A stretch of 60,119 nucleotides of DNA, from IMG/VR virus record IMGVR_UViG_3300025132_000038, positions 1 to 60,119 of that record; one strand, given 5' to 3'. The notes below the pieces were generated by a model that worked only from the letters and a program-made list of their open reading frames with translations, had not been told where the DNA came from and made no database searches. The translations under genes were made by a program, and so were the position numbers. Position 1 is the stretch's first letter; every line of letters starts with the position of its first letter. Source of the DNA: a virus. Shown piece by piece: positions 806-37,277 of the stretch.

Positions 806-831
806 AAAGGGGACACTAGTCCCCTTTTTTT
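806..831 (+). terminator. Rho-independent terminator after the amidoligase gene
   Basis: GGGGAC and GTCCCC arms (loop ACTA) are extended by AAA/TTT and followed by a T run. The same hairpin core GGGGACACTAGTCCCC occurs in the opposite orientation at 36446-36461. Confidence 0.85.
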
Positions 832-839
832 ATGTCCTA

Positions 840-1328: not shown

Positions 1329-1345
1329 ATTTCTCCCCTCTTTAT

Positions 1346-1376
1346 TTGGTATTGTCTAAATTTTGTCTTATATTTG
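1346..1376 (+). promoter_or_regulatory. Bacteroidota-type promoter for the amidotransferase fusion gene
   Basis: TTG (1346-1348) lies 20 bases before TATATTTG (1369-1376), matching the TTG-N19/20-TAnnTTTG pattern. The start codon is at 1438. Confidence 0.5.
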
Positions 1377-1437: not shown

Positions 1438-2574
1438 ATGTGTGTTATAATAGTTAAACAACAAAAAGAGAAAAAAGTATCCAAAGAGATATTAAAAACA
1501 TCAAGCAGAATTAACCCTCACGGATTGGGGGTTGTATGGTTAGATACATTTGAAGTATCTTATCACAAATCAAAAGAGTATAAAATTCTTGACACAACTA
1601 GACCTTATATTGCTCATTTTCGTTATGCAACAATAGGTAAAGTAAATAGAGCTAATACTCATCCTTTTATATGTGGCGATAATTCTGATGAATTATTAAT
1701 GATGAATGGTAGTATATATGGATTAGGAAATTCTAAAACGTGTGATACTAAAGTTCTTGCACAGAATTTAGGTAAGACTTCACGTCATACGTGGAAAAAA
1801 CAACTATCCGAGTATGATTGTAGATTCACTACAATTAATACTAGAACACGTACCTTTCAAATGTATAATAGAGAATTGTGGACAAAGAAAAACGGAGTTT
1901 GGTTTAGTAAAGACAATGTTATACAAGACAATTTGGTTGCAGTGTATGGAACATTAAAGAAAAATTACTCAAACTATAATCACTATTTACGTAGTTCTAA
2001 ATATGTAGGTAGTGGAGAAACACAAGACCGATACCCTTTATTAATAGAAAGCCTGCCGTTTGTGGTAAACAAAAAAGGAGTAGGTCATAATGTAGTTGTG
2101 GATGTGTTTAAAGTTTCTAACACCAAATTAGCAGACCTAGATAAACTAGAGGGACATCCACGTTGGTACAAAAGAGAAATCATACCTATTAAATTAAAAA
2201 GTGGTAAGGTTGTTAATTGTTGGGTATATTTCAACGATAAAGCTATAAACAAAAACACCACGTTTCACAAAACATATACTCAGTCGTATTTAGGTTATAC
2301 ATCAAATTGGAGAAATAATTGGTTAAGGTTTGATAATGACACGGCCATTGACACGTTCCGTGAGGATGAAATTTTACGAGAGGATGAGGTTGTGGAAACA
2401 AAACCCTTTTGTGTAGGTTGCTACAACGATTTAAAGTTTGACGGCTTTTCTAACTATCATTGTAGTAGTTGCGATAGTTGGTTTACTGAATCTGAAATAT
2501 TGCAAGACCACTTTGTTGAGAGGTCAGTGGATAGAATTATGGAGGGGAGTATGGATAATGAAGACACCATTTAG
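1438..2574 (+). CDS. Class II glutamine amidotransferase - gamma-glutamylcyclotransferase - zinc ribbon fusion
   Basis: Three domains are visible in 378 residues. Residues 1 to about 150 are an Ntn-hydrolase glutamine amidotransferase: Cys2 would become the N-terminal nucleophile after Met removal, followed by NPHGLG (26-31), HFRYAT-G (60-67), NTHPF (73-77) and NG (90-91). Such domains release ammonia from glutamine. Residues about 165-275 are a gamma-glutamylcyclotransferase/AIG2-like domain with VYGTLKK at 169-175 and the expected acidic residue in LEGHP (Glu238). Residues 325-345 form a CxxC...CxxC ribbon. The gene has its own promoter-like sequence at 1346-1376 and follows the amidoligase gene on the same strand, separated by non-coding DNA. 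This domain combination with an amidoligase was predicted by comparative genomics to act in peptide or protein amidation; the actual substrate is unknown. Confidence 0.8.
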   Translation: MCVIIVKQQKEKKVSKEILKTSSRINPHGLGVVWLDTFEVSYHKSKEYKILDTTRPYIAHFRYATIGKVNRANTHPFICGDNSDELLMMNGSIYGLGNSKTCDTKVLAQNLGKTSRHTWKKQLSEYDCRFTTINTRTRTFQMYNRELWTKKNGVWFSKDNVIQDNLVAVYGTLKKNYSNYNHYLRSSKYVGSGETQDRYPLLIESLPFVVNKKGVGHNVVVDVFKVSNTKLADLDKLEGHPRWYKREIIPIKLKSGKVVNCWVYFNDKAINKNTTFHKTYTQSYLGYTSNWRNNWLRFDNDTAIDTFREDEILREDEVVETKPFCVGCYNDLKFDGFSNYHCSSCDSWFTESEILQDHFVERSVDRIMEGSMDNEDTI

Positions 2575-4073: not shown

Positions 4074-4400
4074 ATGAAAACAAGAAACGATTTAGAATAC
4101 GCAAATTCTCAACCAAATGAGAACGAATTAGAAAAAGAAAGATTAGTAACAATATCAAATAGAAGTGTATATCATAAATACGCAGAGGTAACTATACCTA
4201 TACCCAAACGTATCAAAAAAGAGGATGTGGCCGATTGGTTATTTGAAAATGAAAACTTATACACAGATGATTTAGACCAACGATTACATGAATCAAAGTA
4301 TGAGTTTGGGTTTGGATTGGGGGAAGGCATGGATGAAAAAGATGAAGAAAGTGAAACGAGGTACGATATAGAGGGAGAAAAATATGGGGGACACCTATAA
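4074..4400 (+). CDS. Hypothetical acidic protein upstream of the ribozyme
   Basis: I chose ATG 4074 (108 residues) over the upstream in-frame ATG at 4029, because 4029 lies inside the preceding gene while 4074 follows its stop by 4 bases and carries the shared A-rich leader. The protein is acidic at its C-terminus (GEGMDEKDEESETRYD). Its stop codon at 4398-4400 directly abuts the hammerhead ribozyme. Function unknown. Confidence 0.6.
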   Translation: MKTRNDLEYANSQPNENELEKERLVTISNRSVYHKYAEVTIPIPKRIKKEDVADWLFENENLYTDDLDQRLHESKYEFGFGLGEGMDEKDEESETRYDIEGEKYGGHL

Positions 4401-4458
4401 GTCTCCGTCTACGAGTTATTTCTCGTACTGATGAGTTCACGTAGAACGAAACGGAAAC
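4401..4458 (+). ncRNA. Type III hammerhead ribozyme
   Basis: All parts of a hammerhead appear in the right order. Stem III is GTCTCCGT (4401-4408) with ACGGAAAC (4451-4458), 8 positions with one mismatch. The cleavage nucleotide C is at 4409 (GUC context). Stem I is TACGAG (4410-4415) with CTCGTA (4422-4427) and a 6-base loop. The core CTGATGA is at 4428-4434. Stem II is GTTC (4435-4438) with GAAC (4444-4447) and a 5-base loop. The core GAA is at 4448-4450, followed by the A that pairs with U of the cleavage triplet. The open end is at stem III, so this is type III. It lies between the stop codon at 4400 and the start at 4477, so self-cleavage after 4409 would split the early messenger RNA. 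Loop-loop contacts cannot be judged here. Confidence 0.9.
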
Positions 4459-4476
4459 TTTAAAAAATTAAATAAA

Positions 4477-4707
4477 ATGAAAGAATTAAAAAAAATGATT
4501 AAGATTGCTTTTAAAAGTGCTTACGATAGATTAAAATTATTAGTGTTATTAGTTATGACTCTAGGTTCATTAGGAGGAGGGATATATTGCGTAGCTATTA
4601 TGCTAGACAAATGTGGTTGGAACATACCTTTGTTTTTATTAGGTTGCGTTGGTATTTGGTTTGGGATTGGGATGATAGATATGTTTAGAGACACTTTTAA
4701 CAGATAA
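4477..4707 (+). CDS. Small two-helix membrane protein
   Basis: 76 residues with a basic start and two hydrophobic segments (about residues 19-42 and 47-66), so an inner-membrane location is likely with a short loop between. It is the first gene downstream of the hammerhead cleavage site (4409/4410) and would be translated from the 3' cleavage product, whose leader is about 67 bases. No family recognised. Confidence 0.6.
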   Translation: MKELKKMIKIAFKSAYDRLKLLVLLVMTLGSLGGGIYCVAIMLDKCGWNIPLFLLGCVGIWFGIGMIDMFRDTFNR

Positions 4708-4744: not shown

Positions 4745-5134
4745 ATGGGAAGGTATTATTCAGGCGACATAGACGGAAAATTTTGGTTCGCTATTCAAAG
4801 TTCAAATTGTGCTGATAGATTTGGTTCAACGGGTCAAACCCCAAACTATTTAGATTATTGGTTTGATGAGAGTCATTTAGAGAATATTAATAATGAGTTA
4901 TTAGAAATAGAAAAAAATTTAGGAGAAAACCTTAAATTATTAAACGAGTTCTTTAACCTTAATAATGGGTATAATAATCAAATGATAACCGAGTTCTACA
5001 AAGAAAAGGGCAAAACGATAGGAGAAGGAGATATTAAACATTTATTAGAGGAGTATGCAGACTTGTCCTTAGGCAAAGAGATAAGGGATTGCGTTAAAGA
5101 AAACGGAGAATGTAACTTTACGGCAGAGTTGTAA
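4745..5134 (+). CDS. Conserved-looking phage protein of unknown function
   Basis: 129 residues starting MGRYYSGDIDGKFWFAIQSS, a Gly/aromatic-rich opening I associate with small phage and plasmid proteins of unknown role, followed by a helical middle. It is the last gene before the terminator at 5157-5187 and so closes this transcript. Confidence 0.6.
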   Translation: MGRYYSGDIDGKFWFAIQSSNCADRFGSTGQTPNYLDYWFDESHLENINNELLEIEKNLGENLKLLNEFFNLNNGYNNQMITEFYKEKGKTIGEGDIKHLLEEYADLSLGKEIRDCVKENGECNFTAEL

Positions 5135-5156: not shown

Positions 5157-5187
5157 GAAAAAGGGGGACGTGTTGTCCCCTTTTTTT
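5157..5187 (+). terminator. Rho-independent terminator
   Basis: GGGGGAC / GTCCCC arms with a GTGTT loop, flanked by A and T runs. It closes the first early gene cluster and resembles the terminator at 806-831, including the CCCCTTTTTTTATG tail. Confidence 0.85.
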
Positions 5188-8557: not shown

Positions 8558-8633
8558 GACATAATCGACACTAACATTGATAATCAGCTACTTACATAAA
8601 AAAAAACGACACTAAAATCGACACATCATGACA
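8558..8633 (+). promoter_or_regulatory. Duplicated 76-bp regulatory or origin-like element, copy 1
   Basis: Three CGACAC boxes (8566, 8607, 8619) and a TTGATAATCAG near-palindrome (8577-8587) sit at the same offsets (8, 49, 61 and 19) as in the copy at 57141-57216. The element ends on the primase-helicase start codon (8628), so it may be an operator for that gene or a replication site used by its product. Confidence 0.65.
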
Positions 8634-11045
8634 CAAAATATCACTATTTTTAAAAATATTAGAGAAACAGCTACTCCGTTTTACCGAGAAACATCCGTTG
8701 TATTAGAAAGAATACAAGAGGGGGCATCTAAAGAGCTTGTAAAAAAAATAAGACTAGAAAAAGATAAAGGAACTAGGAATGAGCTTAAAAAAGAACTACC
8801 GGCTATTTGCTTTTCTGGAAAATTTAACAAAAGAAATGACGATTCAATAGTAGAACATAGTGGGATAATATGTTTAGATTTTGACGGATATAAAAAACAA
8901 AAAGATTTACTTTCCGATAAAGAACAGATAAGTAAAAATAAACATGTGTATTCTGTTTTTATTAGTCCTTCTGGTAACGGATTGAAAGTTTTAATTAAGA
9001 TACCCCAAGATGCAGATAATCACGTTCATTATTTTAACTCCTTAGAAAAACACTTTGAATCCCCATACTTTGATAAGACTTGCAAAAACCTTAGTAGAGT
9101 GTGTTACGAAAGTTATGACCCTTTAATATATGTAAATGAAAATTCATCTATTTGGGATGTTATAGAAGATATAGAATATACGGAAGTTAATGTTCATAGA
9201 GACCCTCCTACTATACCTATAACAGATGAAAATAAAATTGTAGAGATACTTATTAAGTGGTGGCAAAAAAAATATCCAATGATAGAGGGGCAAAGAAATC
9301 AAAATGTATATGTCTTAGCTATGGCCTTTAACGATTATGGTATTAATAAATCTTTAGCGTCTTATGTACTTAATAATTATGCAACCCAAGATTTTAATTT
9401 ATCCGAGATACAAAGAACTATTGATAGTGCTTATTCACACTCTCAAAATTTTGGAACTAAGTATTACGAGGATGAGGAAAGATTAAATACTATAAAATCT
9501 AAATTAAGAAGGGGGGTTACTAAAAAAGAAATAAGAAGTCAGTTAGAGGAAACAAGTTTAGATGACAAAACTATTGATGCTGTATTAAATAAGGTAGAAG
9601 AAGAAAATAAATTAAAGCAGTTTTGGACTAAAAACGACAAAGGTGTTATAAAGATTGTTCATATATTATTTAAACACTTTTTAGAAGACAATGGGTTTTA
9701 CAAGTATTGCCCCGAAGGTAGTAAAAACTACGTCTTTGTTAGGGTTACTAATAATCTAATAGACCATACATCAGAAAAAGAAATAAAAGATTTTATTTTA
9801 GACCACCTTATTCAACTAGACGACAGCTCTATATATAATTATTTTGCCGACCAGACGCGTTTATTTAGAGAGGAATTTTTAACCCTATTATCTACTATAG
9901 ATATTTATTTTATAGCAGACACTAAAGATTATGCTTATTTATATTATAAAAATTGTGCCGTACAAATAAGTAAGAATGAGATAAAAACAATAGACTATTT
10001 AGATTTGGGTGGGTACGTTTGGAAAGACCATATAATTAATAGAAACTTTAATCTATGTAGTTCAGATGATTGTGATTATAAAAAATTTGTTTTTAACGTT
10101 TGTGGAGAAGACCCTGAAAGAACGTTGTCTATGGAAAGTACGATAGGTTATATGTTACACGGACATAAAAATTTATCTTATTGCCCGGCTATTATATTAA
10201 ATGATGAGGTTATATCAGACAACCCAGAGGGTGGTACGGGTAAGGGAATCTTTATGAACGCGTTAGCACAAATGAAAAAGGTGGTAACAATAGACGGAAA
10301 GTCTTTTGCGTTTGAAAGGTCTTTTGCTTATCAGTTAGTATCAGCAGATACACAGATATTAGTATTTGATGATGTTAAAAAACATTTTGATTTTGAAAGA
10401 TTGTTTAGCGTGGTTACAGAAGGTTTGACGTTGGAAAAGAAAAATAAGGACGCAATTAAAATACCTTTTAGTAAGTCTCCTAAAATAGCTATAACAACTA
10501 ATTATGCCATAAAAGGGGCCGGTAATTCATTTGCTAGAAGGAAGTGGGAGTTAGAGTTACATCAACATTATAATAAATCTTTTTCACCCTTAGATGATTT
10601 TGGAAAACTTTTATTTGGAGATTGGGGGGACGAGGAATGGTGTCAGTTTGATAACTACATGATTAGTTGTTTACAAAACTATTTAACAGCCGGTTTACAT
10701 AAAAGTAAATTTGTTAACCTTAAGGTTAGGCAGTTATCAGCAGAAACCTCTCATGATTTTATAGAATGGTGTGGATTAATAAAAGGGTCTCAACCCAATC
10801 CTAAACTAGTTGTTGATTTAAAAAACTATAAACATCAATTATATTTAGAGTTTATTGAAGAATATCCCGACTATGGCCCTAAAGCAAAAATGACTATATC
10901 GCGTACTCGTTTTTATAAATGGTTAGTATCTTATGCTTTGTTCCAAGAGGGTATACAACCAGAGGAAGGAAGGGATTCAGCCGGTAGGTGGATAAGGATA
11001 CGAAGTAAAAAAGAATTAGAGGTTCAAACAAATATAGATTTTTAG
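8628..11045 (+). CDS. Primase-helicase (BT4734/VirE-type primase domain with P-loop helicase)
   Basis: 805 residues. The N-terminal part (about 60-165) matches the BT4734-like/VirE N-terminal domain, a relative of archaeo-eukaryotic primases, with GIICLDFDG (metal-binding D-x-D) and ISPSGNGLKVLIKIP. Residues about 205-285 resemble a primase C-terminal domain (GQRNQNVYVLAMAFNDYGI...). A helicase domain follows near 530-680: Walker A GGTGKG (about 536), Walker B ILVFDDV and sensor-1 KIAITTNY, like D5/SF3-type helicases. It would prime and unwind at the phage fork. It is preceded by the duplicated CGACAC element and followed two bases later by the next gene. No DNA polymerase gene was found in the window. 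Confidence 0.85.
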   Translation: MTQNITIFKNIRETATPFYRETSVVLERIQEGASKELVKKIRLEKDKGTRNELKKELPAICFSGKFNKRNDDSIVEHSGIICLDFDGYKKQKDLLSDKEQISKNKHVYSVFISPSGNGLKVLIKIPQDADNHVHYFNSLEKHFESPYFDKTCKNLSRVCYESYDPLIYVNENSSIWDVIEDIEYTEVNVHRDPPTIPITDENKIVEILIKWWQKKYPMIEGQRNQNVYVLAMAFNDYGINKSLASYVLNNYATQDFNLSEIQRTIDSAYSHSQNFGTKYYEDEERLNTIKSKLRRGVTKKEIRSQLEETSLDDKTIDAVLNKVEEENKLKQFWTKNDKGVIKIVHILFKHFLEDNGFYKYCPEGSKNYVFVRVTNNLIDHTSEKEIKDFILDHLIQLDDSSIYNYFADQTRLFREEFLTLLSTIDIYFIADTKDYAYLYYKNCAVQISKNEIKTIDYLDLGGYVWKDHIINRNFNLCSSDDCDYKKFVFNVCGEDPERTLSMESTIGYMLHGHKNLSYCPAIILNDEVISDNPEGGTGKGIFMNALAQMKKVVTIDGKSFAFERSFAYQLVSADTQILVFDDVKKHFDFERLFSVVTEGLTLEKKNKDAIKIPFSKSPKIAITTNYAIKGAGNSFARRKWELELHQHYNKSFSPLDDFGKLLFGDWGDEEWCQFDNYMISCLQNYLTAGLHKSKFVNLKVRQLSAETSHDFIEWCGLIKGSQPNPKLVVDLKNYKHQLYLEFIEEYPDYGPKAKMTISRTRFYKWLVSYALFQEGIQPEEGRDSAGRWIRIRSKKELEVQTNIDF

Positions 11046-36485: not shown

Positions 36486-37277
36486 TTAACTCCATGTAAA
36501 AGTTCCTCCCCACTGAACTCCTTGAGTTCCTGATGAAGGATTTACAGGCATCTGCACTGAAACATCCGACCATCTACTTCTCCAAGCAGATAGTGCTACT
36601 TCACTAAATTTAGTAAAATAAGCATCGTCCGTTACCGCATCACCCATAGCAATAGCCAATTTTTGACTTGTTGCACCTCTTTTGTAATGAATAGTTACCT
36701 CACCGTCAGCATCGTTACCTCTAATTTCAGTTACTTTATCTAAGCAAACTTGGTATTGACCGTGTTCACTATTATCTGATAAAATAAAAAAATCGTCACC
36801 TACAATAATTCCTGCAGGATGGTCAATCAAAAGTTCTGTATTGCTAACTACTTTTGTGATAGTGTAATTAAGGTTTGTAGTTGTGTTACAAACTGTGTTA
36901 CCTATTGTAACGTTTGCTCCAAAACCTGCTGCCGATAAATCACACTTAAAAGCATTTGCTGCCGCAATAATACTGTAAGCCGTTCCTGAAGCGGAAAGAC
37001 CTCCTGTACCTGTTGCAGGAACAGCCGAGCCTTGAATACTTAAAACTGTATCACTATCTACTGCTGTTACTATAGCATACGTACGAACTGTATAACTTCC
37101 CGCTGCAGTTGTAATAACTGCATAGTCACCCACATTCACTGTAGTAAGAAAATTTTGTCCTGCTTCGGTTAATTTACCCGCAGTCGCCGCACTTGTTGTA
37201 CCTGAGTCCGCTACAGCCGCATTTGTTGCAGTTGAACCTGGATACAATTTTTGTGGCACATTTATATACTTTGCCAT
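36486..37277 (-). CDS. Putative virion structural protein
   Basis: 263 residues, rich in Ala, Thr, Gly and Val and largely beta-strand by pattern (VNVGDYAVIT, VVSNTELLIDHP). The TVVN-GD-A-I / SNTELLI phrasing is typical of capsid-associated or head decoration proteins. It lies in the capsid module and ends at a strong terminator. Confidence 0.5.
   Translation of the reverse strand: MAKYINVPQKLYPGSTATNAAVADSGTTSAATAGKLTEAGQNFLTTVNVGDYAVITTAAGSYTVRTYAIVTAVDSDTVLSIQGSAVPATGTGGLSASGTAYSIIAAANAFKCDLSAAGFGANVTIGNTVCNTTTNLNYTITKVVSNTELLIDHPAGIIVGDDFFILSDNSEHGQYQVCLDKVTEIRGNDADGEVTIHYKRGATSQKLAIAMGDAVTDDAYFTKFSEVALSAWRSRWSDVSVQMPVNPSSGTQGVQWGGTFTWS

Follow-up and report, generated by a model that had tools for sequence, protein, structure and literature searches.

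A type III hammerhead ribozyme between early phage genes, and its apparent exchange with other RNA end signals in an uncultured phage clade

What might a small self-cleaving RNA do between two genes of a phage operon? The stretch of DNA analysed here (the window), a 60,119-base uncultured virus record, carries a hammerhead ribozyme (HHR) in the gap between a small ORF and the gene that follows it. The role of hammerheads in phages has been open since their discovery there (PMC3088659). We addressed this question by comparing the window with its relatives; all the evidence is computational and no cleavage data are available. The features discussed are listed in Table 1.

Table 1. Features of the window, and of related loci (L numbers), that bear on the hammerhead ribozyme.
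Feature	Position	Strand	Remarks
Intrinsic terminator after the 16-783 gene	806..832	+	GGGGAC/GTCCCC stem
Bacteroidota-type promoter upstream of the 1438 gene	1345..1376	+	TTTG-N20-TATATTTG; Bacteroidota consensus TTTG/TANNTTTG (PMC6847099)
Glutamine amidotransferase-like / gamma-glutamyl cyclotransferase (GGACT) gene	1438..2574	+	HHR or tRNA-like element often after relatives' copies
Upstream small ORF	4077..4400	+	107 aa from ATG 4077; stop TAA 4398-4400
Hairpin at 3' end of predicted upstream product	4371..4409	+	GGGGAC 4387-4392 with GUCUCC 4401-4406, or longer alternative via 4371-4389
Outer extension of stem III	4399..4460	+	AAGU 4399-4402 pairing with ACUU 4457-4460; C/A mismatch in between
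Type III HHR, three stems and core	4404..4455	+	sequence, RF00008, clade model R1
HHR stem III	4404-4408 / 4451-4455	+	UCCGU / ACGGA
Predicted cleavage, C17 (4409) / U1.1 (4410)	4409..4410	+	core alignment with RF00008 and R1
HHR stem I	4410-4415 / 4422-4427	+	UACGAG/CUCGUA, spanning 4410-4427
HHR core CUGAUGA	4428-4434	+	
HHR stem II	4435-4438 / 4444-4447	+	GUUC/GAAC, spanning 4435-4447
HHR core GAA	4448-4450	+	
Next gene	4477..4707	+	76 aa, two hydrophobic stretches; HHR or promoter before homologs
Second gene of downstream unit	4745..5134	+	129 aa, PHROG 33624, unknown function
Terminator ending the transcript that carries the HHR	5161..5187	+	GGGGAC/GTCCCC stem
Terminators after the 16-783 family	window, L002, L003		
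tRNA-like elements after the 16-783 family	L141, L148, L156, L211, L213		
tRNA-like elements	L211:1623, 2031, 2954, 3896; L213:2199, 2490, 3249, 4724; L111:5401; L126:1644; L128:6336		
HHR-like elements with extra U	L144:2896-2951; L207:6002-6053; L210:5315-5368; L222:2519-2569, 4406-4459		

The window was confirmed to carry the sequence of a complete type III HHR. All bases of the invariant core (C3-U-G-A-N-G-A9, G12-A-A14, A15.1-U16.1, H17) are present, stem III is open and loops close stems I and II, while the outer extension of stem III overlaps the stop codon of the upstream ORF. Hammerhead chemistry leaves a 2',3'-cyclic phosphate on the C17 side (4409) and a 5'-OH on the U1.1 side (4410); for the window, self-cleavage is inferred. 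When RF00008 was searched against 260 nt around the element, a match of 41.6 bits was obtained (E 4.7e-8; E 2.6e-9 against the whole record), model and window sharing the core CUGAUGA / GAA / A15.1-U16.1 / C17, three stems and an open stem III. However, this score lies 7 bits under the Rfam gathering cut-off of 48.5, and a default Rfam scan of the window at the gathering score listed nothing. The cut-off is an annotation threshold and not a biological property. Among the HHRs of 21 records searched, none reached the Rfam cut-offs (best 47.6 bits), which are too strict for this clade; since the members tested fall below them, HHRs of this kind are probably under-counted.

We therefore used a covariance model, R1, made from 75 related type III HHRs with the window sequence left out. 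Searched against the 60 kb window, R1 returned the HHR with a score of 51.3 bits (E 3.9e-12); its second-ranked match reached 11.4 bits. In the alignment of these type III relatives (A1), stem I was paired in 100% of cells and the stems showed 328 two-sided changes against 98 in shuffles, a signal that was lost when the partner strands were slid. The earlier note, made from the letters alone, had named the element a type III hammerhead, had placed cleavage after 4409 and an 18-nt gap before the next gene, and had asked for covariation of the stems in relatives and for an Rfam covariance match. Coordinates, cut position and gap all agree with the sequence, the identity is upheld by the full core, the three stems and R1, and the covariation is present; the Rfam match was obtained as well, only not at a score that would pass the gathering cut-off. 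The R1 search found one copy of the HHR in the window, which does not meet a multi-HHR criterion of several co-directional copies flanking genes. A string at 36530 (CTGATGA...GAAA) was rejected as a second HHR, being a match without stems that R1 does not find. Loop I of the window HHR is UUAUUU and loop II is ACGUA, where most relatives have UGNGUG and AAAA; the window element is single and, in these loops, divergent.

The cleavage-site base 17 was seen to covary with base 10.1 in A1 (columns 6 and 32; for example L072:4721-4771 and L066:2403-2453). The pairs were C17-G10.1 in 37 sequences, A17-U10.1 in 23, U17-A10.1 in 5 and other combinations in 10, and a U or A at 10.1 comes with an identical base at 11.1 (U.U or A.A). 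This coupling was reached in 0 of 500 shuffles (Fisher 6e-19, uncorrected for ancestry). We found no description of it in the literature, a weak indication given that only open-licence papers were covered; U10.1-U11.1 variants are already known, having been reported in PMC3088659, as were active tandem prophage HHRs. Several phages also contain recurrent HHR-like elements with an extra U after A9 (CUGAUGA-U-GAC...), whose activity is unknown.

Across the fetched loci (3 Mb), 75 HHR candidates of the group were picked up with strict and 118 with relaxed descriptors, of types I and III, compared with no strict and one relaxed match in block-shuffled sequence (3 x 3 Mb, one strand). One type I candidate among the 118 (L144:9355-9490) is dubious, and some descriptor hits may be inactive. 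The strand bias was strict, 118 of 118 candidates lying on the gene strand, nearly all of them a short way after a stop codon. At least one HHR was present in 38 of the 48 loci that had a gene of the 1438 type (glutamine amidotransferase-like, GAT) and at least 2.5 kb of flank on each side; up to five were found per locus, and multi-HHR arrangements were met in many relatives. The distance from the cut to the next ATG was fixed within each type, with a median of about 23 nt for type I (mostly 18-33 nt) and of about 68 nt for type III (mostly 63-74 nt; 67 nt in the window). Because the contigs are related, these counts, like the junction counts given below, are not phylogenetically independent.

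The HHRs were associated with a hairpin that would form the 3' end of the upstream product. A stem of at least 7 bp was found for 81 of 91 type III and 20 of 27 type I elements, against 175 of 932 post-stop controls. In type III the hairpin lies upstream and stops about 5 nt (usually 4-6) short of the cut; in type I, stem III is itself the hairpin, long and reaching to about 1 nt from the cut. Owing to these positions, both types leave the same kind of predicted end, an upstream mRNA with a 3' hairpin. Within each phage, one hairpin sequence serves as stem III of type I elements, as the hairpin upstream of type III elements and in the terminators. It is GTCCGTT..ACGGAC in L106 (11 copies in 22 kb) and GTCTGTT..ACAGAC in L119 (13 copies), and in both phages the copies occur in HHRs, in terminators and between genes, with a few inside coding sequence; further phages have GTGTCT..AGACAC or GTGTAC..GTACAC. 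The recurrent stem of the window is GGGGAC/GTCCCC, whose three perfect copies (809, 5164 and 36446) are all terminator-like hairpins, and the hairpin before the HHR cut matches it over six base pairs, one being G-U.

The palindromes of L106 and L119 were also observed to shift in concert at many sites, coding ones included, as at L119:8242 (Sak gene) and L119:13594 (helicase gene). Such concerted change suggests either a sequence-specific trans factor or gene conversion.

Borders of orthologous genes were then compared for the device that they carry. The family of the 16-783 gene, for which the name amidoligase was dropped and Pfam gives no hit, is followed at 56 distinct junctions by an HHR in 42 cases, a tRNA-like element in 5 and an intrinsic terminator in 3, about 6 having no recognised device. 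After the GAT family, HHRs occupy 21 junctions, terminators 2 and tRNA-like elements those of L111, L113 and L115 (that of L128 is weak); most of the remaining junctions have none. Before the family of the 4477 gene, we found a type III HHR in the window, a type I HHR in L065 and L102 and, in the place of the window's ribozyme, a promoter nearly identical to the window's 1345 promoter in L063, L064 and L067. This promoter exchange is based on few contigs. The best reading of the exchange observed at these borders is that HHRs of types I and III, tRNA-like elements, terminators and promoters are putatively interchangeable in the clade.

The tRNA-like elements are unannotated and about 42 nt long. 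In each, a linker of about 10-13 nt that contains GGT or GGC joins an acceptor stem to a T arm whose loop reads TTCGANT; there is neither an anticodon arm nor an encoded CCA. They covary, the T stem being paired in 100%, and a model of them (R2) gave 19 matches, all on the + strand. In nearly all cases the next ATG follows at a distance of 19-40 nt, and in several the phage hairpin stands 1-4 nt upstream of the element. HHRs are absent from L211 and L213, each of which has four tRNA-like elements. ARAGORN finds no full tRNA at the junctions of L141, L148, L156, L211 and L213, indicating that these are reduced elements, and Rfam gave a sub-threshold resemblance to tmRNA and nothing else. In tRNA punctuation and in the tRNA-like domain of tmRNA, an acceptor stem with a T arm acts as a processing signal between genes. 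The clade elements place the same acceptor and T arm between genes, but they are shorter in plan (no anticodon arm, no encoded CCA) and stand in phage operons, and their processing by RNase P or Z is inferred.

From these results we consider it likely that the window HHR cuts the early polycistronic RNA as one of the exchangeable punctuation devices of the clade, cleavage being inferred. In RNA running from the promoter at 1345 to the terminator at 5161-5187, the cut would separate the gene that ends at 4400 from the one that starts at 4477. The RNA upstream of the cut would finish in the hairpin and carry a 2',3'-cyclic phosphate. Downstream, a new mRNA with a 5'-OH would begin, in which a 67-nt leader, headed by the hairpins of stems I and II, precedes the coding regions for the membrane protein of 76 aa and the protein of 129 aa. 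The devices are placed between genes of one direction, the RNA ones mostly beside a phage-specific hairpin, and with them each gene or gene pair would gain its own protected 3' end and a clean 5' leader without RNA polymerase being stopped. Protection from exonucleases and insulation of expression are inferred. Each device is separated from its ATG by an AU-rich stretch. This fits translation in Bacteroidota, which lack Shine-Dalgarno signals and tune it through secondary structure and through nucleotides upstream of the start codon, A-3 among them (PMC6847099). The earlier proposal, a type III hammerhead splitting the transcript of an early phage operon, is thus supported, with cleavage still inferred; what it missed is the clade-wide, hairpin-coupled system in which the cutter swaps with terminators, promoters and tRNA-like elements.

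A sigma-70 scan gave no useful information, as is to be expected where promoters are not of the E. coli type. Two perfect copies of a 21-nt sequence, AATGTATCTTTAAAGAGACAC, stand as a direct repeat at 839-859 and 927-947 of the window, on either side of a stretch rich in ACACCAACCC repeats; the 21-nt unit is itself close to a palindrome.

The window copy has peculiarities that could be read otherwise. Its upstream hairpin (4370/4371-4409; -16.0 kcal/mol, z -4.1) overlaps stem III bases, whereas the separate hairpin of relatives mostly does not, and the stop codon, within that hairpin, is 3 nt from the HHR instead of about 34 nt as in type III relatives. In context the probability of stem I is 0.03 (naked RNA, ViennaRNA) and the upstream hairpin dominates the predicted ensemble; most of the canonical type III relatives likewise show a lower predicted stem III in context. 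The hairpin is thus predicted to out-compete the window ribozyme in naked RNA before cleavage, and for this reason the ribozyme of the window may work more slowly or only under certain conditions. A ribosome at the stop codon 4398-4400 might then melt the competing hairpin and let the HHR fold, so that release of the membrane gene would depend on translation of the upstream ORF. We regard this as unlikely, as such a switch would be specific to the window phage, and the folding energies omit the tertiary contacts that stabilise HHRs. The predicted misfolding might also betray a decaying, inactive relic, in keeping with the single copy, the divergent loops and the three nearest relatives, in which we found neither an HHR nor HHR remnants. 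Yet the core bases and three stems are all intact, the 67-nt distance to the ATG is conserved, and no other clade-type promoter was found between 1525 and 4477; decay is an improbable explanation.

Two further possibilities concern the clade as a whole. HHRs flank one gene on both sides in some relatives (for example at 287 and 1395 of L072), as would be needed if pairs excised RNA for circularisation or ligation into circular mRNA or small circular RNA. But the window has a single HHR, no RtcB ligase was found in the 12 clade phages in which it was sought, and Perreault et al., in the parts of their paper that were available, report no spliced or circular products (PMC3088659); circularisation is hardly tenable here. 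Number and place of HHRs vary between phages, which might indicate mobile or selfish insertions with no function for the phage. This seems very unlikely in view of their orthologous placement after specific genes, their fixed distance from the start codon, their strict strand bias and their swaps with other RNA end signals.

We thus retain cutting of the early RNA by an exchangeable device as the preferred reading for the window, and extend it to a more general proposal whose chances we judge to be evenly balanced. In this RNA punctuation system, a phage-specific hairpin would be paired with an exchangeable cutter (type I HHR, type III HHR or a minimal tRNA-like substrate of RNase P/Z) or with a U-tract, generating protected 3' ends and clean 5' leaders. 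Because the hairpin evolves in concert across the genome, it is probably recognised by a trans-acting factor.

The window HHR belongs to a known family, and both HHRs and multi-HHR phage operons are already known. According to Perreault et al. (2011), multiple HHRs flank prophage genes, and some of them cleave in vitro and in vivo (PMC3088659). Like those clusters, the clade HHRs are co-directional, intergenic, set in phage operons and able in principle to split transcripts; unlike what the consulted parts of that paper describe, they mix types I and III, have a phage-specific 3' hairpin and are exchangeable with tRNA-like elements, terminators and promoters. The same paper describes a hammerhead 13 nt before an early gene of halovirus HF1/HF2, with a 5' end mapped within 3 nt of the cut. 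This placement shortly before an early gene resembles that in the clade, but the halovirus case is a single example, from an archaeal virus, with a core insertion (PMC3088659). Theta ribozymes of gut phages, used in phage RNA maturation, are also small self-cleaving RNAs, but they have an HDV-like fold and cut next to tRNAs, not between protein genes as inferred for the clade HHRs (PMC10879173). No description of the hairpin coupling, or of the swap with tRNA-like elements and transcription signals, was found in open-licence papers, the only ones searched, which is weak evidence.

The phage is a member of an uncultured, podovirus-like clade of about 60 kb, whose hosts are probably Bacteroidota. 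For the primase-like protein encoded at 8628-11045, IMG/VR contains at least 600 relatives and GenBank one genome that is close, MW202828 ('Podoviridae sp.', Manatee Spring); similarity to phages of Flavobacterium, Polaribacter, Nonlabens and Cellulophaga is weak. The four hits among metagenome-assembled genomes are labelled Flavobacteriales, Cytophagales, Aliivibrio and 'bacterium'. The promoter at 1345, together with the two of these four that are Bacteroidota (Flavobacteriales and Cytophagales), points to Bacteroidota hosts without proving them.

R1 also finds an unannotated HHR in a cultured phage, Flavobacterium phage elemoF (NC_055853.1, L233; 17866-17920 on the - strand; 41.1 bits, E 7.7e-9); the 5'-OH predicted there falls about 62 nt ahead of the gp59 ATG. 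The 79-nt stretch that holds it is at least 99% identical in 68 Elemovirus records. Elemovirus on Flavobacterium sp. BAL314 is thus a cultured phage-host pair in which HHR activity can be tested, and the fixed spacing of the elements gives exact predictions of transcript ends. That one gene border can carry a ribozyme in some phages and a terminator, promoter or tRNA-like element in others is comparative evidence for a role of these hammerheads in forming RNA ends.
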